Of a stretch of 23,347 nt of DNA, positions 2,597 to 13,762 are shown one piece after another; positions within the stretch are counted from its first letter, which is position 1, and every line of letters starts with the position of its first letter. A model generated the notes under the pieces. That model had not been told where the DNA came from. It did not search any database and worked only from the letters and a program-made list of their open reading frames with translations. The DNA comes from a virus. The stretch spans positions 1-23,347 of IMG/VR virus record IMGVR_UViG_3300033571_010102; one strand, 5' to 3'. A program made the translations under genes and the position numbers.

Positions 2597-2678
2597 GGTG
2601 AGTGGCCCGGACGGTAAGGGGTCGGATTGCAAATCCGAAGCACGAAAGTAGTCAGTTCGATTCTGACACTCACCTCCA
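2597..2678 (+). tRNA. tRNA-Cys (GCA)
   Basis: Acceptor GGTGAGT/ACTCACC, anticodon arm TCGGA-TTGCAAA-TCCGA (GCA), T-arm GTCAG-TTCGATT-CTGAC, discriminator U73 as expected for Cys, encoded CCA. The variable loop is unusually long, about 12 nt. Confidence 0.92.
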
Positions 2679-2685
2679 ATACAAT

Positions 2686-2757
2686 GGTGACACCGCACGG
2701 TGCGGACTTGGGTCTCATAAGCCCGAAGAGATAGTTCGAGTCTATCTGGCACCACCA
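2686..2757 (+). tRNA. tRNA-Met (CAT), elongator or Ile2 type
   Basis: Acceptor GGTGACA/TGGCACC with one mismatch, anticodon arm TGGGT-CTCATAA-GCCCG (CAT), T-arm GATAG-TTCGAGT-CTATC, encoded CCA. The D arm is very compact (CCGC-ACGGT-GCGG). CAT could also be the lysidine-modified Ile tRNA; sequence alone does not decide. Confidence 0.88.
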
Positions 2758-2763
2758 AATAAT

Positions 2764-2839
2764 GGGCCGTTAGCTGAGTTGGTTTTAGCACGTGACTTTT
2801 AATCATGGGACATAGGTTCGAATCCTATACGGCTCACCA
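2764..2839 (+). tRNA. tRNA-Lys (TTT)
   Basis: Acceptor GGGCCGT/ACGGCTC, D arm TAGCTGAGTTGGTT-type, anticodon arm CGTGA-CTTTTAA-TCATG, T-arm ATAGG-TTCGAAT-CCTAT, encoded CCA. Confidence 0.95.
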
Positions 2840-2849
2840 TTATTTTGAT

Positions 2850-2936
2850 GATACACTGCCAAGACGTTGGGTATGATACGTGGACAGGCTGATAACCTGT
2901 GCTACTATGGTTTGAGTCCATAAACCACGGTGTATC
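2850..2936 (+). ncRNA. tRNA-like RNA carrying an Ile-type (GAT) anticodon arm
   Basis: The ends pair (GATACAC 2850-2856 with GTGTATC 2930-2936). A hairpin CCAA-GACG-TTGG follows the 5' strand. An inner 5-bp stem CGTGG/CCACG (2879-2883/2925-2929), stacked directly on the outer stem, encloses a perfect anticodon arm ACAGG-CTGATAA-CCTGT, a 5-nt variable region and a T-arm TATGG-TTTGAGT-CCATA. It is a D-arm-less tRNA-like module on an extra stem. This is the plan described for bacterial Y RNAs of the YrlA type, but it could also be an aberrant tRNA-Ile. Confidence 0.55.
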
Positions 2937-2959
2937 TTCTAAGTAATAATTATTTTAAC

Positions 2960-3111
2960 GTGTGTAGTGGCTGTGGTCAGTTTCTATCTAGAAGATGACG
3001 AACATCCTTAAATCGACTCTCGTCGCAGCCGGGTTTGGCCACCCAATTGCAAGATACGTCAGCAGTGAGAACCAGTAATTCTAGAACCTTACTGGAGTTT
3101 ATGCTACACAC
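2960..3111 (+). ncRNA. multi-hairpin structured RNA, about 152 nt
   Basis: The ends pair over 8 bp (GTGTGTAG 2960-2967 with CTACACAC 3104-3111). Inside, GGCTG pairs with CAGCC to enclose TTCT-ATCT-AGAA and CGAC-TCTC-GTCG hairpins. A GGG...CCC hairpin and a 7-bp hairpin CCAGTAA/TTACTGG follow. No credible coding frame. It lies between tRNA-like RNA 2850 and tRNA-Phe. No family recognised. Confidence 0.5.
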
Positions 3112-3122
3112 TTTAAAGTAAT

Positions 3123-3198
3123 GTACTTGTAGCTCAGTTGGTAGAGCAGCGGATTGAAAATCCGCGTGTCAGGAGTTCAATTCTCTTCAAGTACACCA
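3123..3198 (+). tRNA. tRNA-Phe (GAA)
   Basis: Acceptor GTACTTG/CAAGTAC, D arm GCTCAGTTGGTAGAGC, anticodon arm GCGGA-TTGAAAA-TCCGC, T-arm AGGAG-TTCAATT-CTCTT, encoded CCA. Confidence 0.96.
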
Positions 3199-3203
3199 AT
3201 TAC

Positions 3204-3308
3204 GGGACAGTAGCTCAGGTAGATTAGCCGTCTATTAGCTGGTCTGAGTAGAGCGGGAGTGTTGGCTAACACTTCGCGTCGTTGGTTCAATTCCAACCTG
3301 TTCCACCA
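3204..3308 (+). tRNA. tRNA-Ala (probable GGC) with expanded D loop and anticodon arm
   Basis: Acceptor GGGACAG/CTGTTCC has the G3-U70 wobble that defines alanine tRNAs, A73 and an encoded CCA. The T-arm (GTTGG-TTCAATT-CCAAC) and D stem (GCTC/GAGC) are canonical, but the D loop is about 34 nt. The anticodon arm is 20 nt, best drawn as GGAGTG/CACTTC with an 8-nt loop TTGGCTAA. The anticodon is GGC if U33 is the second T. It could be a functional odd tRNA-Ala, one with quadruplet potential, or one needing processing. Confidence 0.7.
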
Positions 3309-3317
3309 ATATTACGT

Positions 3318-3346
3318 TTGCTGCCTTGCTTAAAACAAGCTATTAT
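3318..3346 (+). promoter_or_regulatory. promoter TTGCTG-17-TATTAT
   Basis: TTGCTG (3318-3323), 17-bp spacer, TATTAT (3341-3346), directly downstream of tRNA-Ala and upstream of the gene at 3370. Confidence 0.55.
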
Positions 3347-3369
3347 GTATTAAGAGAAAAGGAAAATTT

Positions 3370-3630
3370 ATGTATCATCTTTTTGCAATACATAAGCTAA
3401 GCGATGTTTGGGATGAAATTCCTTATGAAAAGCGTGAGTGGTGGGTGTTAACTTACTCAAATGCTAGTAAACAAGCTGTGCTAGACTGGCATAGCACTCA
3501 CAAGCTAAACTTCGTCTATAAAATTGTTAACAGTGATAGAACGCTAAAAGATATATTCTATCCTAGGCAAGAGATTAAAAAATCAACACAAACAGCTTTA
3601 ATGTTAAGAGCTGTAAACTATACACCATAA
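3370..3630 (+). CDS. hypothetical protein, 86 aa
   Basis: ATG 3370 follows AAAAGGA. The protein (MYHLFAIHKLSDVWDEIPYEKREWWVLTYSNASKQAVLDWH...) is aromatic-rich with a basic C-terminal half. It sits between tRNA genes under its own promoter, and tRNA-Ile begins three bases after the stop, so protein and tRNA are probably cotranscribed. No family recognised. Confidence 0.65.
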   Translation: MYHLFAIHKLSDVWDEIPYEKREWWVLTYSNASKQAVLDWHSTHKLNFVYKIVNSDRTLKDIFYPRQEIKKSTQTALMLRAVNYTP

Positions 3631-3633
3631 TAT

Positions 3634-3709
3634 TGTCGCATACTTCAGTTGGTAGAAGGCTGAGCTGATAACTCAGATGTCACTGGTTCGATCCCAGTTG
3701 CGACAACCA
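3634..3709 (+). tRNA. tRNA-Ile (GAT)
   Basis: Acceptor TGTCGCA/TGCGACA, anticodon arm CTGAG-CTGATAA-CTCAG, T-arm ACTGG-TTCGATC-CCAGT, A73, encoded CCA. Confidence 0.95.
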
Positions 3710-3715
3710 AAATTC

Positions 3716-3799
3716 GGGAGTGCCGCCTCAAGGTGAGGCAGCGGACTGTAACTCCGTCGAGGAAACTCATGTTGGGTTCGATTCCCTTCACTCCCACCA
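3716..3799 (+). tRNA. tRNA-Tyr (GTA)
   Basis: Class II tRNA: acceptor GGGAGTG/CACTCCC, anticodon loop CTGTAAC (GTA) on stem GCGGA/TCCGT, long variable arm (CGAGGAAACTCATG), T-loop TTCGATT, encoded CCA. Confidence 0.93.
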
Positions 3800-3807
3800 A
3801 ATATCAT

Positions 3808-3884
3808 GTCCCCATAGATTACGTTGGCTAGATCATCGCCCTTTCAAGGCGAAGAAGCGGGATCGACACCCGCTGGGGATACCA
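3808..3884 (+). tRNA. tRNA-Glu (TTC)
   Basis: Acceptor GTCCCCA/TGGGGAT, anticodon arm TCGCC-CTTTCAA-GGCGA, T-arm GCGGG-ATCGACA-CCCGC, encoded CCA. Confidence 0.93.
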
Positions 3885-3900
3885 ATTCAAGGAAATGCCT

Positions 3901-4107
3901 ATGCCTAAATCACCTGTTTATGGTAGAGGTCGCAACCGCAATCATCGTCCTCCAAAGAGTCCTATTCACGCCTCTGCAGCAAACATTAATATGCGCGGTA
4001 AAAAAAGTAAATCCGATCACTGCTGGTGCTGTGTATGCATTGACATGCGTGAAAAAATAACTCATAGCATACACACAAAGGAAATGAAAAATGAAACAAG
4101 ATCGTAA
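3901..4107 (+). CDS. small basic protein with C-terminal Cys cluster, 68 aa
   Basis: ATG 3901 is preferred to ATG 3895 because AAGGAA (3889-3894) is the right distance from it. The N-terminal part is strongly basic and proline-rich (MPKSPVYGRGRNRNHRPPKSP), followed by DHCWCCVCIDMRE with four clustered cysteines that could bind zinc. A nucleic-acid-binding role is plausible but unproven. The end overlaps the start of the HAD gene by 17 bases. Confidence 0.55.
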   Translation: MPKSPVYGRGRNRNHRPPKSPIHASAANINMRGKKSKSDHCWCCVCIDMREKITHSIHTKEMKNETRS

Positions 4108-4651
4108 ATATCCGATGTCTTTAGACGTTGAACAAGATCGTAAATATCTGGTGTTTTTAGACATTGACGGAGTTTTTACTAGCTCGCGTGTTCACCTTGC
4201 TCACAATGCTGTTTACAATATGTGGCAGAGATTTGATCCTGTTGCAGTAGACTTCATGAATAAGATCCATGATCGTTATCCCGTTGAATTCGTGCTAATT
4301 TCAACTTGGAAAAATGATCTACGCAACGACGATAATACTGTTGAACACTGGATTCGTGCAGCTTTTGCTAACTCCGGCTTTCGCGGTGACTTTGCGAGGA
4401 TGTGGAAAACTGATCCAGACAATCTGTGGGCTGCTAGGGCAAAACCTTATGATCGTTCTCACGAAATACGTGAGTATCTTGAAACCTATGGCCAAGACAT
4501 TGTAGACTATATAATCTTTGATGATAACGACTACGGTTTTGAGCAGGTTCTAGGTAAAAAGCGCTGGGTTCGTACTGACCCTCAAAACGGGTTGCTATTC
4601 AAACATATGCTAAATGCCCAATCAATAATGGGGATGTGGAATAAAAAATAA
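4091..4651 (+). CDS. HAD-superfamily protein resembling Swiss-army-knife RNA-repair HAD domains
   Basis: HAD motif I is FLDIDGVF (Asp24 and Asp26), motif II is LISTWKND, and motif IV is IIFDDNDYGF. The RSHEIREYL segment and the RTDPQNGLLF end fit the HAD_SAK type of small phosphatase domain known from RNA-repair proteins and large phages. The expected activity is metal-dependent hydrolysis of a phosphate monoester, possibly at an RNA end. The N-terminus shows a tandem repeat (QDRKY...LDVE / QDRKY...LDID) from a 36-bp duplication. It lies between tRNA-Glu and tRNA-Arg; an RNA-repair role is inferred from domain type and context. Confidence 0.7.
   Translation: MKQDRKYPMSLDVEQDRKYLVFLDIDGVFTSSRVHLAHNAVYNMWQRFDPVAVDFMNKIHDRYPVEFVLISTWKNDLRNDDNTVEHWIRAAFANSGFRGDFARMWKTDPDNLWAARAKPYDRSHEIREYLETYGQDIVDYIIFDDNDYGFEQVLGKKRWVRTDPQNGLLFKHMLNAQSIMGMWNKK
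4095..4166 (+). repeat. 36-bp tandem duplication at the HAD gene start
   Basis: Copy 1 (4095-4130) and copy 2 (4131-4166) share AACAAGATCGTAAATAT and TTTAGAC blocks with a few substitutions, mostly transitions. The second copy encodes the catalytic FLDIDG strand; the first encodes a non-catalytic imitation (MSLDVE). Confidence 0.85.
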
Positions 4652-4652
4652 T

Positions 4653-4729
4653 GCTTCTGTAGCTCAATGGATTAGAGCAACACGCTACGAACGTGTAGGC
4701 TAGGGGTTCGAGTCCCTTCAGAAGCTCCA
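4653..4729 (+). tRNA. tRNA-Arg (ACG)
   Basis: Acceptor GCTTCTG/CAGAAGC, D arm GCTCAATGGATTAGAGC, anticodon arm ACACG-CTACGAA-CGTGT, T-arm AGGGG-TTCGAGT-CCCTT, encoded CCA. It starts immediately after the HAD stop codon. Confidence 0.95.
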
Positions 4730-4736
4730 AAAAATA

Positions 4737-4817
4737 TCTAGGTTATTCGAGACAAGGTGGGGACCGCCCCATGGATTTTTGACGGGAGTAGCTACCCATA
4801 ATCATATAATTCCTAGA
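4737..4817 (+). ncRNA. small structured RNA, ends paired
   Basis: TCTAGG (4737-4742) pairs with CCTAGA (4812-4817), extended by TTAT/ATAA across a two-base bulge. Inside are TGGGG-ACCG-CCCCA and GGG-AGTAGCTA-CCC hairpins. It has no T-loop or anticodon arm. It fills the whole spacer between tRNA-Arg and the next gene. Confidence 0.45.
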
Positions 4818-4855
4818 CGATAATCTGGAGGCGCTATTCAAAAAAGGATATAACC

Positions 4856-5200
4856 ATGCTAGATAAAGCATACGATTTGACTATTAAAGCAGCATTAGGC
4901 CAGCCTCTTACTGATGATGAAAATCAGTATTTGAGCAATCGTAATGCTAAGTACGAGATTGTACGTTATGTGTACATTGAAAAAATGCGACATGACGGAG
5001 TAGACCTGCAAAACTTCCACCTTACTCCTGGTGACTCATTCATGGAAACTCCTATCATTGATATTGTGAATGGATTACTTGAAGTGAACAAAGCTATCAA
5101 AAACGGCGACTATGATGTTGTCGACTTTGGTGATTCGTCATTAGTTAAATCTAATCCGCCACACACTGGTAAAGAAAAAACAACGCTGGATAAGGTGTAA
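4856..5200 (+). CDS. hypothetical protein, 114 aa, 3' end overlapping tRNA-His
   Basis: ATG 4856 follows AAAAAAGGA. The protein begins MLDKAYDLTIKAALGQPLTDDENQYLSNRN and is mainly helical and acidic. No family recognised. Its last five codons and stop lie inside the tRNA-His gene (5185-5259), so RNase P cleavage at the tRNA 5' end would remove the mRNA stop codon. Either tRNA maturation and translation of this gene compete, or the annotated end reflects recent fusion of two genes. Confidence 0.6.
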   Translation: MLDKAYDLTIKAALGQPLTDDENQYLSNRNAKYEIVRYVYIEKMRHDGVDLQNFHLTPGDSFMETPIIDIVNGLLEVNKAIKNGDYDVVDFGDSSLVKSNPPHTGKEKTTLDKV

Positions 5201-5259
5201 TGGTTGCATCCCTCACTGTGACTGAGGTGGACGTGGTTCGATCCCACTATCCAGTACCA
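5185..5259 (+). tRNA. tRNA-His (GTG)
   Basis: Acceptor GCTGGAT/ATCCAGT, anticodon arm CCTCA-CTGTGAC-TGAGG, T-loop TTCGATC, A73, encoded CCA. The discriminator A, instead of the usual bacterial C73, matches the atypical alphaproteobacterial tRNA-His class. The first 16 bases overlap the end of the preceding coding gene. Confidence 0.9.
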
Positions 5260-5286
5260 AAGCATACAGCTGTTTCAAATTATGTA

Positions 5287-5315
5287 TTGCTTGTTACTTA
5301 ATTATTAGCTATATT
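5287..5315 (+). promoter_or_regulatory. promoter TTGCTT-17-TATATT ahead of the TROVE block
   Basis: TTGCTT (5287-5292), 17-bp spacer, TATATT (5310-5315). It lies downstream of tRNA-His and would drive the zinc-ribbon micro-gene, RNA-A, RNA-B and the TROVE gene. Confidence 0.65.
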
Positions 5316-5344
5316 AATAATATAAAGAAAATAGGATCGCACAG

Positions 5345-5467
5345 ATGATTAACTGGTTTAAAAATCTTTTTAAAATAAAAACATGTAAGCACGATGGGTG
5401 TGGGTATCTACAACCTAATGTGCACGACCACAAATGTGCAATCTGCCGTCTTCCTATGGGAGAATGA
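5345..5467 (+). CDS. 40-aa putative zinc-binding protein
   Basis: ATG 5345 follows AGGA. The peptide MINWFKNLFKIKTCKHDGCGY...HDHKCAICRLPMGE has an amphipathic N-terminus, then CKHDGC and HDHKCAIC: paired Cys/His ligands typical of a single zinc ribbon or knuckle. Its stop is five bases before RNA-A and it is the first gene after the promoter at 5287. No family name recognised. Confidence 0.6.
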   Translation: MINWFKNLFKIKTCKHDGCGYLQPNVHDHKCAICRLPMGE

Positions 5468-5471
5468 ATAT

Positions 5472-5544
5472 AGGATCGCTTCAGCATACTTAGCTATGAA
5501 AGCACTTCACTTGTAATGAAACCAAAGCCGAAAGGCACGATCCT
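5472..5544 (+). ncRNA. RNA-A: candidate Y-RNA-like small RNA (73 nt)
   Basis: A perfect 7-bp closing stem AGGATCG/CGATCCT (5472-5478/5538-5544) is followed at once by CTTCAGCA, the motif shared with RNA-B and RNA-D. Inside are CATA...TATG and TTCA-CTTGTAA-TGAA arms and a GCC-GAAA-GGC tetraloop hairpin. The size and 7-bp stem resemble tRNA, with a TGT anticodon-like loop, but a T-arm is lacking. Position: just upstream of RNA-B and the TROVE gene. I infer a Ro-associated RNA; a degenerate tRNA-Thr is the alternative. Confidence 0.5.
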
Positions 5545-5564
5545 GAATAAACTATTGAAACCAT

Positions 5565-5653
5565 AGGTTGGTTTCAGCAACTAAAAACCGGGAATGGTTC
5601 CCAATTTGTCTATTAAACAAACTTAACGGTTCGAATCCGTGAAATACCAACCT
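5565..5653 (+). ncRNA. RNA-B: candidate Y RNA with tRNA-like module (89 nt)
   Basis: Closing stem AGGTTGG/CCAACCT (5565-5571/5647-5653), then TTTCAGCA, with TTTCA able to pair with TGAAA across a two-base bulge. Three hairpins inside imitate a tRNA cloverleaf: GGGAA-TGG-TTCCC, TTTGT-CTATTAA-ACAAA (a perfect 7-nt anticodon-type loop) and ACGG-TTCGAAT-CCGT (a T-arm). The T-arm does not abut the closing stem, so it is not a standard tRNA. Bacterial Y RNAs of the YrlA class pair both ends and carry such a module. It ends 13 bases before the TROVE start. Confidence 0.6.
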
Positions 5654-5666
5654 GAAAGGAAATATT

Positions 5667-7094
5667 ATGTCGTTTGTTAACGCAGTTAAAAATCAAAAGA
5701 ATAATGCTCCTGCTCGTACCGCTAATGGTATGAAGGCACGTGCCACTTCTGCATCACCTGTTCTTGATTTGTTCGGTATCATCGGTTCTGCACGCGGCAC
5801 TGATATTACCAAGCAATTTGTAGCAGCTTTTGTAGAAAACAAAGAGCTTACTCTTCGTATGCTTCTTTGGGCTCGTGATATTCGCGGTGGTGCTGGTGAA
5901 CGTGCTACCTTCCGTAATCTGCTCTCCGCGCTAGAGACTACCGACCCAACTCTAGCGGGTAAGCTTATGTCCAAGGTTCCTGAATTGGGACGTTGGGACG
6001 ACTTGTTCACCTACCGTGATCCGATCAACCGCAATAAAGCATTTGCATTCATTCGTGAAGCTCTTGCTAATAGCGATGGTCTTGCTGCAAAGTGGATGCC
6101 GCGTAAAGGTCCGATTGCTGTTGAATTGACTCGGTTCCTGGAACTGAGCCCTAAGCAGTATCGTAAGCTCATCGTTGGTCTGACTAATGTTGTTGAAAGC
6201 AAGATGTGTGCTAAGGAATGGGAAGCAATCAACTTCTCGCATGTTCCTTCAGTAGCTTCTGCTCGCTATCAAAAGGCTTTTGGTCGTAATGCAAAAGACG
6301 CATACTCTGCGTATATTGCAGAACTAAAGAAGCCGGTTGAACAGCGTGACCCTAAAGTCAAGATCAACGCGGGAGCAGTTTACCCTTACGATATCATTAA
6401 GTCGGTTGTAAAGGGTAATGCAGCTGTTGCAGATGAACAGTGGAAGGCTCTGCCTAACTACATCGGTGACGCTCGCATTCTGCCAATGGTTGACGTATCT
6501 GGTTCCATGGGTAGCCTCGGTTACTCTCATGGTTCACAACTGTCGCCTATTGACGTTGCAGTTTCGCTCGGTCTTTACTGTGCAGACAAGAACACTGGAG
6601 CTTTCAAGGATCTGTTTCTGACCTTCTCTAGTAGGCCGAAGATGGAACACCTTAAAGGTACTCTGTCTCATAAGATGGCTCAGATGAGCCGTGCTAATTG
6701 GGAAATGACCACTAACCTACATGCAGCGTTTGATGAGATTCTCAAAATCGCTGTGAACGGTAAAGTTTCTCAAGAGGACATGCCTCAGATGTTGCTTATC
6801 CTCTCGGACATGCAGTTTGACCAGTGCACTCGCTACGACGACTCTGCTATGCAGATGATTGCTCGTAAGTACGAAGCTGCTGGATACGCTGTGCCTAAGA
6901 TTGTGTTCTGGAACCTGTCAATGTACGGCAAAGAGAACGGTAACAGCCCCGTCAAGTTTGACGAACGCGGTACTGCTCATATCTCTGGCTTCTCGCCTGC
7001 GATCATGAAAAGCGTTCTTGCAAACGACCTTGAGGACTTTACTCCATACAATGTTATGGTAAAGACTCTTATGAACGATCGCTACGCCTACTAA
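5667..7094 (+). CDS. rsr: TROVE-domain Ro60/Rsr-like RNA-binding protein
   Basis: This 475-residue protein has the TROVE/Ro layout: helical-repeat region from about residue 20 to 265 (DLFGIIGSARGTDITKQF..., LLWARDIRGGAGERATFRNLL), then a von Willebrand A domain with a MIDAS motif DVSGS (276-280), threonines at 348-349 (MTTNLHAAF) and a later LSDMQFD. In characterised Ro proteins the helical ring binds misfolded RNA ends and Y RNAs, and bacterial Rsr works with exoribonucleases in RNA quality control. The start follows GAAAGGAAATATT. Candidate Y RNAs lie immediately on both sides. The gene is richer in GC and in optimal codons than its neighbours, suggesting strong expression. Confidence 0.9.
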   Translation: MSFVNAVKNQKNNAPARTANGMKARATSASPVLDLFGIIGSARGTDITKQFVAAFVENKELTLRMLLWARDIRGGAGERATFRNLLSALETTDPTLAGKLMSKVPELGRWDDLFTYRDPINRNKAFAFIREALANSDGLAAKWMPRKGPIAVELTRFLELSPKQYRKLIVGLTNVVESKMCAKEWEAINFSHVPSVASARYQKAFGRNAKDAYSAYIAELKKPVEQRDPKVKINAGAVYPYDIIKSVVKGNAAVADEQWKALPNYIGDARILPMVDVSGSMGSLGYSHGSQLSPIDVAVSLGLYCADKNTGAFKDLFLTFSSRPKMEHLKGTLSHKMAQMSRANWEMTTNLHAAFDEILKIAVNGKVSQEDMPQMLLILSDMQFDQCTRYDDSAMQMIARKYEAAGYAVPKIVFWNLSMYGKENGNSPVKFDERGTAHISGFSPAIMKSVLANDLEDFTPYNVMVKTLMNDRYAY

Positions 7095-7101
7095 GGCGTA
7101 G
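7082..7101 (+). other. inverted repeat around the TROVE stop codon
   Basis: CTACGCC (7082-7088) and GGCGTAG (7095-7101) form a perfect 7-bp stem with the TAA stop in its loop (TACTAA). No T-run follows, so it is not an intrinsic terminator. It may protect the mRNA 3' end or insulate the gene from RNA-C. Confidence 0.5.
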
Positions 7102-7111
7102 CTACTAAAAT

Positions 7112-7205
7112 AGGTTAGTTGCAGCAACAAATTTATAGCAGGTTCGATTCCTGTCTATCCAACCATAATCTGGACAGACGCCCATGGCGGGCAAAATGCT
7201 AACCT
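7112..7205 (+). ncRNA. RNA-C: candidate Y RNA downstream of TROVE (94 nt)
   Basis: Closing stem AGGTTAG/CTAACCT (7112-7118/7199-7205), then TTGCAGCA, a one-base variant of the RNA-A/B/D motif. Inside are a T-arm mimic GCAGG-TTCGATT-CCTGT and a hairpin GCCC-ATGGC-GGGC. The 3' side reads GCAAAATG next to the stem, like ACAAAAA in RNA-D. An overlapping tRNA-like end (CTATCCAACCA) exists, but no full tRNA can be drawn upstream of it. It begins 18 bases after the TROVE stop. Confidence 0.5.
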
Positions 7206-7228
7206 GAGTAAAAATTTTTAAAAAACTA

Positions 7229-7257
7229 TTGACTGCTTGTAAAAAATGAGTTATAAA
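7229..7257 (+). promoter_or_regulatory. promoter TTGACT-17-TATAAA
   Basis: TTGACT (7229-7234), 17-bp spacer, TATAAA (7252-7257). It would start transcription near 7264, just before a structured leader and the HNH gene. Confidence 0.6.
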
Positions 7258-7267
7258 TATTAAGTAA

Positions 7268-7316
7268 AGGCGAAAAGGGTAGCTCCCCTGACTTGTGCTC
7301 GCTCACAGTCTAGCCT
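7268..7316 (+). ncRNA. structured leader ahead of the HNH gene
   Basis: AGGC (7268-7271) can pair with GCCT (7313-7316), enclosing GGG-TAGCT-CCC and a hairpin with GACT/AGTC and GTG/CAC pairs around CTCGCT (7290-7310). It sits at the 5' end of the transcript from the promoter at 7229. It may be another small RNA or a 5'-UTR control element; no known riboswitch consensus is seen. Confidence 0.35.
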
Positions 7317-7335
7317 ATATTTAGCGAGAAATAAT

Positions 7336-7896
7336 ATGAAAGATATAGATCTAGAACCCGTAGCAGTATGGAGAAAAAATTTAAAGCAAAGAGCAGTTAA
7401 TCTATTTGAAGGTAAATGCTGTGTATGTGGTTACAATAGATGTTTAGCTGCTTTAGAATTTCATCATTTAGACCCTTCTAAAAAAGATTTTTCTATATCC
7501 CAGGCATATGCTAATCCCAAAAAATGGGAATACATAGTAGCAGAATTAGAGAAATGTGTTTTAGTATGTTCTAATTGCCATAGGGAAATACATCAAGGAA
7601 TTCTAGAATTAGAAAATAAAACCTATATACTAACTGAAAAAGACTATAGAATAGTAGAAAAAACACATCATCACTGTACATGTGGTTCTGTAATTAGATT
7701 ATCTGCTAAATACTGCTCTCCAGAGTGTTCTTCTAAAGGAGCTATGACTAAAGATTGGTACGCAGAAAAAGATAATATTATAACTATGCGTGATGACAAA
7801 AAACTATCATATGTTGCAATAGGATTACACTACAAAGTATCCGATCATACAGTTAGAAAATGGTATTTAAAATTTAAAAATAGCATTCCCAGTTAG
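7336..7896 (+). CDS. HNH endonuclease with C-terminal zinc ribbon and HTH, inserted in the tRNA array
   Basis: In this 186-residue protein, CCVCGYN...LEFHHLDPSKKDF...CVLVCSNCHREIH (about residues 29-94) is an HNH module with two zinc-binding Cys pairs and a FHHLD catalytic centre. A second Cys cluster (CTCGSVIRLSAKYCSPEC) and a helix-turn-helix-like tail (LSYVAIGLHYKVSDHTVRKWYLKFK) would read the target. The gene is markedly AT-rich beside the tRNAs. Its last four codons run into tRNA-Asn, overlapping the acceptor strand, as expected for an element that arrived beside a tRNA. Likely a free-standing homing endonuclease. Confidence 0.82.
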   Translation: MKDIDLEPVAVWRKNLKQRAVNLFEGKCCVCGYNRCLAALEFHHLDPSKKDFSISQAYANPKKWEYIVAELEKCVLVCSNCHREIHQGILELENKTYILTEKDYRIVEKTHHHCTCGSVIRLSAKYCSPECSSKGAMTKDWYAEKDNIITMRDDKKLSYVAIGLHYKVSDHTVRKWYLKFKNSIPS

Positions 7897-7964
7897 CACT
7901 CTAGGCGAGCGCGTTCGGCTGTTAACCGAAAATAAGGTTGGTTCGAATCCAACACTGGGAGCCA
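7887..7964 (+). tRNA. tRNA-Asn (GTT)
   Basis: Acceptor TCCCAGT/ACTGGGA, anticodon arm TTCGG-CTGTTAA-CCGAA, T-arm GTTGG-TTCGAAT-CCAAC, G73, encoded CCA. The first ten bases overlap the HNH coding end. Confidence 0.95.
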
Positions 7965-7972
7965 AATATCAT

Positions 7973-8048
7973 TGCGGGGTAGAGAAGAGGCATCTTGCTT
8001 GGCTCATAACCAAGAGATCGGAGGTTCGAGTCCTCCCCACCGCAACCA
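7973..8048 (+). tRNA. initiator-like tRNA-Met (CAT)
   Basis: TGCGGGGTAGAG at the 5' end, GGCTCATAACC at the anticodon and CCGCAACCA at the 3' end closely follow bacterial tRNA-fMet. The first position is T opposite A72, a weak pair where E. coli has C1/A72. The anticodon stem CTTGG/CCAAG has two of the three G-C pairs typical of initiators. T-arm GGAGG-TTCGAGT-CCTCC, with one extra C before the acceptor strand. It could act in initiation, or be an elongator or Ile2 tRNA. Confidence 0.8.
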
Positions 8049-8049
8049 A

Positions 8050-8211
8050 AATTGATCGGTAACGCGAGGTGGTACTTACTTATTGATCGAAACCGCAGAC
8101 CCGCTAGTCGGGGTAGAATAGTGGAAGATATAGTCGGCTTCCACATTATAGCCAACGTCCTAGACACTGCGAAACCTGCGGCTTTGTAGCAGTTATAGAT
8201 AGCTAGGAGAC
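8050..8211 (+). ncRNA. structured RNA spacer between tRNA-fMet-like and tRNA-Ser
   Basis: Hairpins CCCG-CTAGT-CGGG (8100-8112), GTGGAAG/CTTCCAC (8121-8127/8138-8144) and a long nested hairpin TCCTAG/CTAGGA (8158-8163/8203-8208) enclosing ACTGC/GCAGT. ATTGATCG occurs twice (8051, 8082) as a direct repeat. I find no single closing stem here. No coding frame with a ribosome-binding site. Confidence 0.35.
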
Positions 8212-8243
8212 CTGCCATGAGGGAGTAGATTGGCAATTATAGA

Positions 8244-8331
8244 GGAAAGTTGGGCGAGCGGTTTATGCCTACAGTCTTGAAAACTGTCGAACCGCAAGGT
8301 TCCGTGAGTTCGAATCTCACACTTTCCGCCA
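8244..8331 (+). tRNA. tRNA-Ser (TGA)
   Basis: Class II tRNA: acceptor GGAAAGT/ACTTTCC, anticodon arm ACAGT-CTTGAAA-ACTGT, variable arm GAACC-GCAA-GGTTC, T-arm GTGAG-TTCGAAT-CTCAC, G73, encoded CCA. Confidence 0.96.
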
Positions 8332-8337
8332 TGTTTA

Positions 8338-8402
8338 AGGATCGGTTCAGCAAAACTTTACGCTAAATCATTTGGATTGTCTTAGCGGACAAAAACGATC
8401 CT
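8338..8402 (+). ncRNA. RNA-D: RNA-A-like small RNA (65 nt)
   Basis: Its closing stem AGGATCG/CGATCCT (8338-8344/8396-8402) is identical to that of RNA-A, followed by GTTCAGCA and, on the 3' side, ACAAAAA. The body is one long hairpin (CGCTAA/TTAGCG with inner ATC/GAT) and has no tRNA features. The shared stem and motif with a different body argue that the closing end is the functional, conserved part, as in Ro-binding stems of Y RNAs. Confidence 0.5.
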
Positions 8403-8412
8403 GTTATTATTT

Positions 8413-8485
8413 GGGGCGGGTAATGGGTTACGGGTGATCCTTGCAAGATCGCTGTCGTTGGGTTCGATTCCCAGTCGCTCCACCA
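8413..8485 (+). tRNA. tRNA-Ala (TGC)
   Basis: Acceptor GGGGCGG/TCGCTCC with the G3-U70 alanine determinant, anticodon arm TGATC-CTTGCAA-GATCG, T-arm TTGGG-TTCGATT-CCCAG, A73, encoded CCA. Confidence 0.93.
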
Positions 8486-8491
8486 AGTTAC

Positions 8492-8590
8492 CGGTTTTCG
8501 GTTACGTCCGGTCTACTACTGGCAAGCTGCTCGGCTCGATTAAGTTGCGGTATGAGGGTTAGCCCAAGGGTAAGATGTAGATAAAAACCG
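8492..8590 (+). ncRNA. structured RNA, ends paired (99 nt)
   Basis: CGGTTTT (8492-8498) pairs with AAAACCG (8584-8590). Then CGG...CCG forms a hairpin and TCTAC pairs with GTAGA as an inner stem, holding AGC...GCT and GGG-TTAG-CCC hairpins. The outer stem / hairpin / inner stem order recalls the RNA at 2850. It fills the spacer between tRNA-Ala and tRNA-Gly. Confidence 0.45.
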
Positions 8591-8601
8591 ATTAGAATAA
8601 C

Positions 8602-8676
8602 GCGGAGGTAGCTCAGGGGTAGAGCTTCTGCTTGCCAAGCAGACGGTCGTGGGTTCGAATCCCATTCTCCGCTCCA
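8602..8676 (+). tRNA. tRNA-Gly (GCC)
   Basis: Acceptor GCGGAGG/TCTCCGC, D arm GCTCAGGGGTAGAGC, anticodon arm TCTGC-TTGCCAA-GCAGA, T-arm GTGGG-TTCGAAT-CCCAT, encoded CCA. Confidence 0.96.
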
Positions 8677-8680
8677 AATT

Positions 8681-8792
8681 AGTGTATGTGTAAGATTCAG
8701 AGCCTAACGATTTTCTATCCTGTTCCTAGGAATGCGGGTGTGGGGATACGGTGAGGGTATCGCATAACCCTTGTATTGCGGTGGCATACACT
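8681..8792 (+). ncRNA. structured RNA, ends paired (112 nt)
   Basis: An 8-bp closing stem AGTGTATG/CATACACT (8681-8688/8785-8792) encloses TATCC/GGATA around TTCC-TA-GGAA and a hairpin GGGTAT/ATAACCC with one bulge. ATTCAGAG near the 5' side faintly recalls the TTCAGCA motif of RNA-A/B/D. It fills the tRNA-Gly/tRNA-Asp spacer. Confidence 0.45.
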
Positions 8793-8801
8793 ATTCAAAT
8801 T

Positions 8802-8875
8802 GGCCCTATGGTATATAGGTATTACACTAGGCTGTCTACCTGGTGAACGCGGTTCGAGTCCGCGTAGGGTCGCCA
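8802..8875 (+). tRNA. tRNA-Asp (GTC)
   Basis: Acceptor GGCCCTA/TAGGGTC, anticodon arm CTAGG-CTGTCTA-CCTGG, T-arm CGCGG-TTCGAGT-CCGCG, G73, encoded CCA. Last tRNA of the array. Confidence 0.94.
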
Positions 8876-10918: not shown

Positions 10919-10957
10919 CTGTCATAAAATTGTTACAAAATTGTGATATTCTATAAT
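10919..10957 (+). promoter_or_regulatory. PhoB-type promoter of pstS (three 11-bp Pho-box repeats plus -10)
   Basis: CTGTCAT-AAAA (10919-10929), TTGTTAC-AAAA (10930-10940) and TTGTGAT-ATTC (10941-10951) form three 11-bp direct repeats of the Pho-box form (7-bp half-site plus 4 A/T-rich bases). A perfect -10, TATAAT (10952-10957), follows. The first repeat equals the classical CTGTCATAAAA. No good -35 is present, as is typical of activator-dependent PhoB promoters. This implies induction by the host PhoR-PhoB system under phosphate limitation. Confidence 0.8.
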
Positions 10958-10995
10958 TAGCATAGAATGCTCTATGTAATTTATAGGAGAAACTC

Positions 10996-11958
10996 ATGAT
11001 AAAAACTTTAACTATTGCTGGTATATTAGCTATATCTACTTCTAGCGTTTATGCTAGAGATCAAATTCAAGTAACTGGATCTTCAACTGTTCTGCCATAT
11101 GCAACTATTGTAGCAGAAGCATTTGGTGAAAACTTTGATTTTCCATCGCCTGTTGTAGAAGGTGGTGGGTCTGGTGCTGGCCGTAAAAAACTATGCGAAG
11201 GAGTTGGCGAAAACACTGTTGACATTGCAAACTCTTCTTCAAAAATGAAAGACGAAGAATGGGCCAAGTGTGAAGCTGCTATTGGCGCCATCACTGAAGT
11301 TCGCTTTGGTTATGATGGAATTGTATTCGCTTCAAATATTGATGCTTTAAATCTTGATAATGTAACAGTAGCTCAACTATATACTGCGCTACACGCAGAC
11401 AGCACTGCGCGTCTATGGAGTGATGTAGACTCTACACTACCAGCTACCGAAATTCTAGCTTACATTCCAGGTACTAAACATGGAACACGTGAAGTGTTTG
11501 ATGTAAAGGTCATGGAAGCTGGCTGTAAAGAAGTACTAGGAGTTGAAAAACTAGACGACGATCAGAAAAAGGCATGTGTGAAGGTACGTACTGACGGTGC
11601 AGCCGTTGACATCGATGGCGACTATACAGAAACACTTGCTCGTCTCGATGCAAACAAGACATCACTCGGCGTATTTGGTCTAAGCTTCTATCAGAACAAT
11701 ACTGATAAACTAGAAGTGTCTACAGTAAGCGGTGTTACGCCTAGCGTAGAAACAATCTCAAGTGGTGACTACCCTATCAGCCGTCCACTCTACTTCTACG
11801 TTAAGAATGCGCATCTTGACGTAATTCCTGGATTAAAAGAGTATGTGGCATTCTTTTTAAGTGATGATATGTCAGGTCCAGACGGTGCATTAGTACAATA
11901 CGGTCTTGTTCCAGATCCTGAGCTAGCTACTACACAAGCTGCAATCGCTTCTTGGTAA
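10996..11958 (+). CDS. pstS: phosphate-binding periplasmic protein PstS
   Basis: This 320-residue protein has a signal peptide (MIKTLTIAGILAISTSSVYA, cleavage likely after residue 20). The PstS phosphate-binding signatures follow: TGSSTVLPY at 27-35, GGGSGAG at 56-62, and IANSSSKMKDEE. The later ISRPLYFYVKN segment is typical of the family. It would bind phosphate in the host periplasm and deliver it to the host PstCAB transporter, supporting phage DNA synthesis. ATG 10996 follows AGGAGAAACTC. The length fits phage and marine bacterial PstS. The dedicated Pho-box promoter and terminator make it a self-contained gene cassette. Confidence 0.93.
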   Translation: MIKTLTIAGILAISTSSVYARDQIQVTGSSTVLPYATIVAEAFGENFDFPSPVVEGGGSGAGRKKLCEGVGENTVDIANSSSKMKDEEWAKCEAAIGAITEVRFGYDGIVFASNIDALNLDNVTVAQLYTALHADSTARLWSDVDSTLPATEILAYIPGTKHGTREVFDVKVMEAGCKEVLGVEKLDDDQKKACVKVRTDGAAVDIDGDYTETLARLDANKTSLGVFGLSFYQNNTDKLEVSTVSGVTPSVETISSGDYPISRPLYFYVKNAHLDVIPGLKEYVAFFLSDDMSGPDGALVQYGLVPDPELATTQAAIASW

Positions 11959-11981
11959 TAGCAATACATCTATCTCTTTAA

Positions 11982-12010
11982 AAAGAGGGTTGACAAGCCC
12001 TCTTTTTTTA
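11982..12010 (+). terminator. terminator of pstS with promoter -35 in its loop
   Basis: AAAGAGGG (11982-11989) pairs with CCCTCTTT (11998-12005), followed by TTTTATTT. The loop TTGACAAG contains the consensus -35 box of the next promoter. Confidence 0.85.
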
Positions 12011-12018
12011 TTTATAAT
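11990..12018 (+). promoter_or_regulatory. consensus promoter TTGACA-17-TATAAT
   Basis: Perfect sigma70 consensus: TTGACA (11990-11995), 17-bp spacer, TATAAT (12013-12018). It is embedded in the pstS terminator and drives the gene at 12039. Confidence 0.85.
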
Positions 12019-12186: not shown

Positions 12187-12549
12187 GTGATTAAAGCATT
12201 TAGAGCAAAACAAGTTGAGTCTATCATTGAACGATATGATTCAAACACCTATGGTATTTATATTGGTTATCAAGCTATTGGTGACTGTATAGGTCCAACG
12301 AAGATTGGGCGTACTATCAATTTGAAAGCAATCGAGCGCGGACGCGCTCAAGGCGGAGCAGACTGGTGGTTTCACTCTTTCTGGCTACTCGACAGTCGTG
12401 CAGAAACTTATAGCGTAGAGTCTCGCATTAAAGCAAGCCTAAAGCAGTACAAAATTAAAGGCACGCAGTCACAAACAGAATTATACTCACTATCTTTAGC
12501 AGAAGCCGAAACGCTAGTTTCACAACTGCTAGGGCCTTCTGCAATTTAA
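12187..12549 (+). CDS. T5orf172 / GIY-YIG-superfamily protein
   Basis: The start is GTG 12187, one base after the previous stop. In this 120-residue protein, YGIYIGYQAIGDCIGPTKIGRTINLKAIERGRAQGG contains the KIGRT motif and strand layout of T5orf172 (Mug113-like) domains, a GIY-YIG nuclease relative. A later SRAETYSVESRIKASLKQYK segment offers the conserved Glu. A DNA endonuclease or mobile-element role is likely, though many family members are uncharacterised. It lies directly upstream of the tmRNA locus. Confidence 0.7.
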   Translation: MIKAFRAKQVESIIERYDSNTYGIYIGYQAIGDCIGPTKIGRTINLKAIERGRAQGGADWWFHSFWLLDSRAETYSVESRIKASLKQYKIKGTQSQTELYSLSLAEAETLVSQLLGPSAI

Positions 12550-12570
12550 TAAGCTCTGATTACGTAAATT

Positions 12571-12613
12571 AGACGCAGGTAAGACTCGGGGGCGGTACCC
12601 GACGACTCCACCA
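12571..12613 (+). ncRNA. ssrA: permuted tmRNA, acceptor piece
   Basis: In order: CAGGTAA (12576-12582), the 3' strand of helix P2; the T-arm TCGGG-GGCGGTA-CCCGA (12586-12602); the acceptor 3' strand CGACTCC (12603-12609); A73 and encoded CCA (12611-12613). CGACTCC pairs with GGGGTCG at the start of the coding piece, with the G3-U70 pair needed for alanine charging. The 5' boundary is approximate; the upstream trailer may include 12550-12570. Confidence 0.88.
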
Positions 12614-12712
12614 AAGATACTCCGCCACTTAATACATAAATGCGGAGTATTTCCGGAACACTTTCCGCGGGTCAGTCAGTGGTTCGAAACACTGCCGTGG
12701 AGTATCTTTGAT
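12614..12712 (+). other. tmRNA intervening segment with competing hairpins
   Basis: This is the segment removed when a permuted pre-tmRNA matures into two pieces. Its ends pair perfectly (AAAGATACTCC 12613-12623 with GGAGTATCTTT 12699-12709). The same 5' strand can instead pair with GCGGAGTAT at 12642-12650. A T-loop-like hairpin CAGTG-GTTCGAAA-CACTG (12676-12693) also lies inside. At 99 nt it is long for such a segment. Confidence 0.75.
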
Positions 12713-12882
12713 GGGGTCGAAATAGGATCGATTACTTGAAGACGAAGAAACCAGGAGCCAGTGCGCAAGCGACTGTAACCGCAAGAAAATTAACAATTGC
12801 AAACGATAACTTTGCTCCTAAGGAATTTGCACTAGCTGCATAATCCTGTGGGTATGGGCTCCACCTAGAAACAGAACGGGCC
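12713..12882 (+). ncRNA. ssrA: permuted tmRNA, coding piece with tag ANDNFAPKEFALAA
   Basis: It starts with the acceptor 5' strand GGGGTCG (12713-12719) and the AAATAGGATCG D-like region. TTACTTG (12732-12738) pairs with CAGGTAA of the acceptor piece as P2. The tag frame begins at resume codon GCA 12799 and ends at TAA 12841-12843, giving 14 residues of the alphaproteobacterial ANDN...AA type. GGAGCC (12754-12759) can pair with GGCTCC (12857-12862) around the tag. tmRNA with SmpB rescues stalled ribosomes and tags nascent chains for proteolysis. The 3' boundary is estimated. Confidence 0.9.
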
Positions 12883-12906
12883 TACTGTTGTAAAAATGTA
12901 ACAGTA
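12883..12906 (+). other. hairpin at the tmRNA 3' border
   Basis: TACTGTT (12883-12889) and AACAGTA (12900-12906) form a 7-bp stem with an A-rich loop. No T-run follows, so it is more likely a processing or stability element than a terminator. Confidence 0.45.
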
Positions 12907-12958: not shown

Positions 12959-13009
12959 AACTCATAAGCTAAGAAATTAGTTTTATTAACAACTTAAGAG
13001 GTGAAAACT

Positions 13010-13762
13010 ATGAATAAACTATTACTTTCTGTTGCATTTTTAGCTATGTTAGCTGGCACTGCAATTGCTGCTGAAATTGGCGGAAGCATTGAACTTGAAG
13101 TAGAAAAGAATGTTGCAGACAATTATGGCGCTGCACTTACTTATAACCTAAACTATACTGGCGGTAGCGAAGAGCTAGGCGCAAGTGCAAGCATTGGTTT
13201 TGAAAATGATGCAATTGACTCTTGGTCTTTGGGAGTTAATCTTATGGGAGCCGGTATCTCTGTTGGAGATCAAGGCAGCCTATTCATCGAAGGCTATGAT
13301 GGAGCTACTTTAGCTGATCCAGCTATTGACGAGTCTCTAAGAGTTAACTACTCTGGAGCTAGCGTAGCACTAGGCTTTGGAGACTTTGAAAACGATTTAA
13401 CTGATATTGAAAGCGTACAAGCTGCTTATGAAATGGCAGTAGCTGGTGTAGATCTTGCAGCCGCTGTAGACTACAACCTAGATAGCGAAGACTATGCAGT
13501 TGGCGTGTTAGCTAGCTATGCTATGAATGATAAGCTACGCGTAGGTGGAGCTGTTACTTACTCTGACATTTTAGCTTATGAAGCTACTGTTAGCACACTA
13601 GGAGTTACTGGATACATCAACGGTGACGAAGATGAGTTTGCTCAGAATGTTGGAGCTGGTTATGAAACTAAGCTAAACGGACTAGCACTAAACGCAAAAG
13701 TTAACTATAATCTAGATAGCGAAGAGATTGCTCCTACTCTAGGAGTAGCATTCAAGTTCTAA
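13010..13762 (+). CDS. secreted outer-membrane beta-barrel (porin-like) protein
   Basis: ATG 13010 follows AGAGGTG. An in-frame GTG at 13001 is part of the ribosome-binding region. In this 250-residue protein the signal peptide is MNKLLLSVAFLAMLAGTAIA, with cleavage before AEIGG. The mature part is a series of amphipathic strands with Gly/Ala/Tyr-rich alternation and Asp/Glu-rich turns, and ends in LGVAFKF; a C-terminal Phe is the usual BAM recognition signal. It would insert in the host outer membrane. Roles could be superinfection exclusion by receptor alteration, or solute (perhaps phosphate) uptake. It has its own strong promoter and terminator. The family within porins is not recognised. 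Confidence 0.75.
   Translation: MNKLLLSVAFLAMLAGTAIAAEIGGSIELEVEKNVADNYGAALTYNLNYTGGSEELGASASIGFENDAIDSWSLGVNLMGAGISVGDQGSLFIEGYDGATLADPAIDESLRVNYSGASVALGFGDFENDLTDIESVQAAYEMAVAGVDLAAAVDYNLDSEDYAVGVLASYAMNDKLRVGGAVTYSDILAYEATVSTLGVTGYINGDEDEFAQNVGAGYETKLNGLALNAKVNYNLDSEEIAPTLGVAFKF

Follow-up and report, generated by a model that had tools for sequence, protein, structure and literature searches.

Positions 10919–10952 of the analyzed viral DNA are highly likely to form a PhoB-dependent sigma-70 promoter, at which phosphorylated PhoB and the sigma-70 RNA polymerase of the host would transcribe the phage pstS gene under phosphate starvation. The starvation alarm of the infected cell would thus very probably turn on viral pstS. 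Judged from its sequence, this gene is preceded by a genuine Pho box. The box consists of two repeats rather than the three reported in a preliminary description of this DNA, which was correct in essence and erred on two points, the number of repeats and the position of the -10 hexamer. Conservation among relatives, spacing, and the match to a matrix of host-group sites make the case for this predicted promoter stronger than a single-site prediction.

The pstS Locus and Its Predicted Promoter

The whole stretch analyzed, a virus record of 23,347 bases, is herein referred to as the window. It contains phage-type genes, and no near-identical public phage was matched in a near-identity search of phage records. 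Thirteen tRNA genes were found at 2597–8875 by ARAGORN, as well as two weaker tRNA-like Rfam matches at 3204–3305 and 3716–3796. The window also encodes a permuted, two-piece tmRNA of the alphaproteobacterial type (12515–12886; Rfam RF01849 and RF04321), the tag of which reads ANDNFAPKEFALAA by eye. The window PstS scored 176 bits against the PstS family (PBP_like_2), for which the curated cut-off is 27. Coordinates of the locus are given in Table 1.

Table 1. Features of the pstS locus in the window
Feature	Position	Strand	Basis or remark
Two-unit Pho box (PhoB-type site), CTGTCATAAAA + TTGTTACAAAA	10919..10940	+	27.0 bits, host-derived matrix
6-nt spacer TTGTGA, ending in TGA of the extended -10	10941..10946	+	Start of the formerly proposed third repeat, 10941–10951
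Most likely -10 hexamer, TATTCT	10947..10952	+	Register conserved in relatives
Alternative -10 of the preliminary description, TATAAT	10952..10957	+	Out of the conserved register; closer to consensus
Stem-loop GCATAGA-ATGC-TCTATGT, predicted 5' end of pstS mRNA	10960..10977	+	MFE structure
Shine-Dalgarno sequence AGGAG	10985..10989	+	Sequence
pstS, periplasmic phosphate-binding protein, 320 aa, apparent signal peptide	10996..11958	+	PF12849, E = 1.3e-51
Terminator-like hairpin with T-run, 3' of pstS	11980..12007	+	

A perfect sigma-70 consensus, TTGACA-17-TATAAT (11990–12018), overlaps the terminator-like hairpin, so termination of one transcript and initiation of the next may take place within the same stretch. 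Further downstream, at 13001–13762, a porin-like beta-barrel protein of unassigned family was recognized by eye; its distant relatives, with 38–40% identity, were found in three related phages. A candidate Pho box before the porin-like gene (12885, 2.9 bits) was rejected, and relatives of this gene lack the box.

For the PhoB-site matrix, expectation-maximization was applied to sequences preceding bacterial pstS (68 after dereplication, almost all from Rhodobacterales and Rhizobiales), with phage sequence excluded. The matrix converged on CTGTCACAAAA-CTGTCACAAAA. On both strands of the window, the best 22-bp site for this host-only matrix was the one at 10919–10940 (27.0 bits). The second-best register, at 10930 and overlapping the Pho box, scored 9.4 bits, and the best non-overlapping site scored 5.6 bits. 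The top scores of 100 order-3 Markov windows had a mean of 9.0 bits and a maximum of 18.65 bits. The earlier claim of a PhoB-type box upstream of phage pstS is therefore borne out, with a score lying well outside the background of the window.

As half-sites, unit 1 (14.6 bits) and unit 2 (13.1 bits) ranked first and second among 46,674 positions, and the pattern TGTYAYA-N4-TGTYAYA had one exact match in the window vs. 0.015 expected. A Pho box was taken to comprise at least two direct repeats of the CTGTCA type, 11 bp long and in phase, that stand in for the -35 element and lie about 6 nt upstream of the -10. Such repeats are present as units 1 and 2, with TATTCT following at 6 nt.

The interval 10919–10957 reads CTGTCATAAAA-TTGTTACAAAA-TTGTGATATTC-TATAAT, exactly as quoted in the preliminary description, in which TTGTGATATTC was counted as a third repeat abutting the TATAAT box. 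As a half-site, this unit scored -1.3 bits, and 1.5% of window positions score as well; it overlaps the promoter spacer and the -10. The supposed repeat is mostly the 6-nt spacer plus the predicted extended -10 (TGA-TATTCT, 10944–10952), and three functional repeats are consequently unsupported.

Spacing of the -10 was analyzed in 40 distinct viral pstS promoters aligned on the second unit. Because this alignment was anchored on GTTACA, its second-unit columns are biased, and evidence was drawn from its -10 columns and from the host matrix. With a 6-nt gap after unit 2, TA...T was found in 25 of the 39 relatives, and the mean match of the hexamer to TATAAT was 4.21 vs. 2.15 for the null (sd 0.19). 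With an 11-nt gap, which is the spacing of TATAAT in the window, TA...T was found in 9 of the 39. Therefore, the window -10 is most likely TATTCT, five bases upstream of TATAAT; the latter hexamer does literally adjoin the repeats, as described before, but by comparison it is probably not the working -10. The TG of the extended -10 is present in 17 of 37 promoters. The former observation that the promoter has no -35 is roughly right: the sole candidate for TATAAT is a degenerate TTGTTA located 16 nt upstream, within unit 2 (TTGTTA-16-TATAAT, 10/12 in a sigma-70 scan).

Conservation in Phages and Hosts

Fifty distinct upstream regions were obtained from 80 viral pstS loci, Pelagibacter phage Mosig, and the window. 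The host matrix scored at least 12 bits in 26 of these regions and at least 8 bits in 37, vs. none and 0.5%, respectively, of 1,871 stretches sampled as controls from the same contigs. The corresponding Mann-Whitney p-value of 3.7e-27 is only indicative owing to non-independence among the relatives. Scores below 8 bits were found for 13 of the 50 regions; among these, a single strong TGTTACA unit is retained in L002, L006, and L043, and no box was found upstream of pstS in L003, L007, L049, and L054. Four in-phase units were recognized by eye upstream of pstS in three phages (L017, L023, and L026). The pstS gene of L055 has no box of its own and is preceded by a gene for the alkaline phosphatase PhoX (L055:943–2778; PF05787, E = 6e-167), upstream of which a four-unit Pho-type array of 14.7 bits is located. 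Likewise, the pstS gene of L059 has no own box, and such an array lies before the upstream gene. Another viral contig carries two different pstS genes in tandem (L065:5053–5991). The record CAKLQF020000007.1 (L082, "Acinetobacter phage MD-2021a") contains a bacterial pstSCAB operon beside lrp, ipdC, and aroP and looks like a mislabeled bacterial chromosome; therefore, Acinetobacter "phage" PstS matches were left out of the phage set.

The bacterial PstS proteins closest to that of the window belong to Rhodobacterales, being about 60–66% identical. PhoB was found above the NCBIfam cut-off in all 16 of the 16 genomes with the nearest PstS, the true host being presumed. Both this similarity and the tmRNA type agree with the alphaproteobacterial setting suggested earlier, and it is through these two features that the host is indirectly assigned to Alphaproteobacteria. 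In the PstS tree, the window protein and 25 other viral proteins form one group. Among the viral sequences, six bacterial PstS (L087, L090, L096, L100, L119, and L128) were also placed; at the three of these loci that were inspected, the genes after pstS read by eye as other pst and pho genes.

The pstS promoters of the hosts usually consist of four 11-bp units, about 6 nt, and then TAGAC, and they share the order TGTCAT-then-TGTTACA. By this comparison, the predicted phage promoter is a shortened host form, with the strong TGTCAT/TGTTACA pair adjoining the -10. Three or more repeats would not be unusual, as four in-phase 11-bp units occur in the host pstS promoters and in that of Escherichia coli pstS.

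The predicted pstS mRNA begins with a stem-loop, which for the window alone is only moderately significant (z = -1.4). For its analysis, 24-nt slices were folded at fixed distances from the -10 and compared with dinucleotide shuffles. In the phage pstS promoters, a sharp peak of stability starts 4 nt after the -10 hexamer, with a mean of 2.8 kcal/mol below the shuffles (t = -7.6), and the signal is near zero at most other places. At this peak, a fold of -3 kcal/mol or lower was found in 26 of 37 promoters. The same peak was found about 8 nt after the -10 in the host pstS promoters (loci L084–L163; t = -10.6, n = 56), together with a smaller stability dip at -16 (t = -5.0). Among 37 strong sigma-70-like promoters from the same phage contigs, only 2 have the stem-loop, and the idea that phage promoters in general carry the hairpin was rejected. 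Stem sequences vary from phage to phage; therefore, structure rather than sequence seems to be kept, and a DNA operator is unlikely.

Stem-loops at the 5' terminus stabilize mRNAs such as ompA against RNase E, and a similar protection of pstS mRNA is our guess. It is conceivable, though rather doubtful, that the phages took over the whole host pstS control unit, promoter and RNA leader together, and that the structurally kept hairpin is a 5' shield or a regulatory element sparing phage pstS mRNA while other host mRNA is destroyed. No report on point for this hairpin was found in the literature searched, mostly open-access papers.

Proposed Mechanism and Alternative Readings

In the proposed promoter, two 11-bp half-sites would replace the -35 element and be followed by the 6-nt spacer and the extended -10 (TGATATTCT). 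During phosphate starvation of the host, PhoR would phosphorylate PhoB, and PhoB~P would bind the predicted box and recruit the host sigma-70 RNA polymerase. The phage pstS mRNA would then be made when phosphate is short, beginning with the stem-loop that probably protects its 5' end. The phage PstS, acting as its family suggests, would be exported and would feed PstCAB of the host, because the phage brings no transporter: PstB was not found in 20 viral records, some of them incomplete, and in these pstS stands without the rest of the system. A boost of phosphate uptake under limitation would be expected.

It is unlikely that a third PhoB subunit occupies TTGTGATATTC, with TATAAT at 10952–10957 as the -10. 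In favor of this reading, three or four good units are frequent among the hosts, and TATAAT matches the consensus hexamer perfectly. TGT is also retained at the in-phase third position in 13 of 37 promoters, far more often than base frequency predicts, so partial contact with a third subunit may still be made. The low score of the third unit, however, and the -10 of the relatives, which falls 6 nt after unit 2 and within this unit, speak for the two-unit box; moreover, the corresponding stretch of E. coli pstS reads TTGTCC, which gives TTGTGA of the window a counterpart in a classical spacer. More improbable is an ordinary, phosphate-independent sigma-70 promoter with an extended -10, in which the boxes would be remnants of the host gene. 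Such a promoter would agree with the extended -10, the 4/6 match to the -35, and the frequency of strong constitutive early promoters in phages. Nevertheless, the box is kept in most of the 50 distinct viral upstream regions, which are otherwise strongly diverged and AT-rich, and remnants would not retain both units and their spacing.

Two further readings would assign pstS to the transcription program of the phage itself. Among the relatives, the contigs of which reach 330 kb, the T4-type major capsid protein Gp23 was found in six long ones; another window protein has an 84–86% identical copy in two long relatives, one of which (G005) also has Gp23. T4-like phages can pair a box upstream of the -10 with a phage activator, and pstS could have a middle promoter served by a MotA-like phage protein instead of PhoB. 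We consider this very improbable, since the matrix was derived from bacterial promoters and the dyad does not precede many genes. In the 22 long records scanned, exact dyads are located at pstS wherever the position was checked, and one-mismatch dyads elsewhere are about as frequent as those of a reversed-pattern control; a phage-wide MotA-like element was thus rejected. The OmpR-type DNA-binding domain (Trans_reg_C) was not found in 26 viral records by a search that was positive in 10 of 14 control genomes, and a phage-encoded PhoB was rejected as well. Least probable of all is transcription of pstS along with the virion genes from a T4-type late promoter (TATAAATA). The sequence TATAATTA is located at 10952, and TATAAATT was found in 5 of the 50 upstream regions, but TATAAATA itself is absent from 50 of the 50 viral pstS upstream regions and precedes gp23 in 3 of the 5 phages tested. 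Therefore, the late promoter was rejected for pstS, which seems to be read by the host-type sigma-70 polymerase.

Comparison with Known Systems

The proposed PhoB-dependent promoter resembles those of E. coli in its spacing. E. coli phoA has two units, CTGTCATAAAG-TTGTCACGGCC, followed by 6 nt (GAGACT) and TATAGT (the query sequence was found before phoA), and E. coli pstS has four units, TTGTCC, and TATTTT. The E. coli units are mostly TGTCA, whereas unit 2 of the window contains TGTTACA. Closer is the Rhodobacterales pstS promoter, which shares with the window the 11-bp units, the TGTCAT-then-TGTTACA order, the distance between the last unit and the -10, and the 5' stem-loop. It differs in usually having four units, vs. 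two strong ones in the window; the phage promoter, for its part, is AT-rich and its -10 elements are better.

Among isolated phages, the alphaproteobacterial myovirus Pelagibacter phage Mosig EXVC030M (MT647606) has a lone pstS, the product of which is 42% identical to that of the window. Upstream of it, no site of the Rhodobacterales type was found (-7.4 bits), although TGTTAA can be seen to repeat at an interval of 11 bp. A GGCC-ACGAA-GGCC hairpin was seen by eye in its leader (L083, upstream of 4001). Possibly, the Mosig leader has the same layout with a different box. On Pho boxes in alphaproteobacterial phages, nothing on point was found in the literature searched, mostly open-access papers.

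The textbook case of host-regulated phosphate genes in phages is based on cyanophages. The pstS gene of cyanophage P-SSM2 is under host PhoBR control (Zeng and Chisholm, 2012, as cited in PMC10976474), and phage S-PM2d has Pho-box genes with PhoB-bound promoters (PMC10976474). According to the same cyanophage study, a Pho box predicted in a phage genome is not a reliable sign of PhoB binding (PMC10976474). In P-SSM2 and S-PM2d, as predicted for the window, phage genes are under host PhoBR, the gene in P-SSM2 likewise being pstS. The cyanophages, however, have cyanobacterial hosts and the box PyTTAAPyPyT/A, whereas the window has an alphaproteobacterial tie and a CTGTCA-type box, as in enterobacteria and Alphaproteobacteria. 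The window PstS is also alphaproteobacterial, and its 5' stem-loop is common to the host leaders.

The mechanism is best read as the cyanophage logic extended to a different, widespread host group. That this predicted wiring recurs in many T4-like phages linked to Alphaproteobacteria suggests that infections responsive to phosphate are common outside cyanobacteria as well, and such infection is testable in culturable Rhodobacterales. The comparison yields a precise predicted promoter, with box, spacer, -10, and start. It also reveals a conserved 5' hairpin, which was unexpected, in the pstS mRNAs of hosts and phages.
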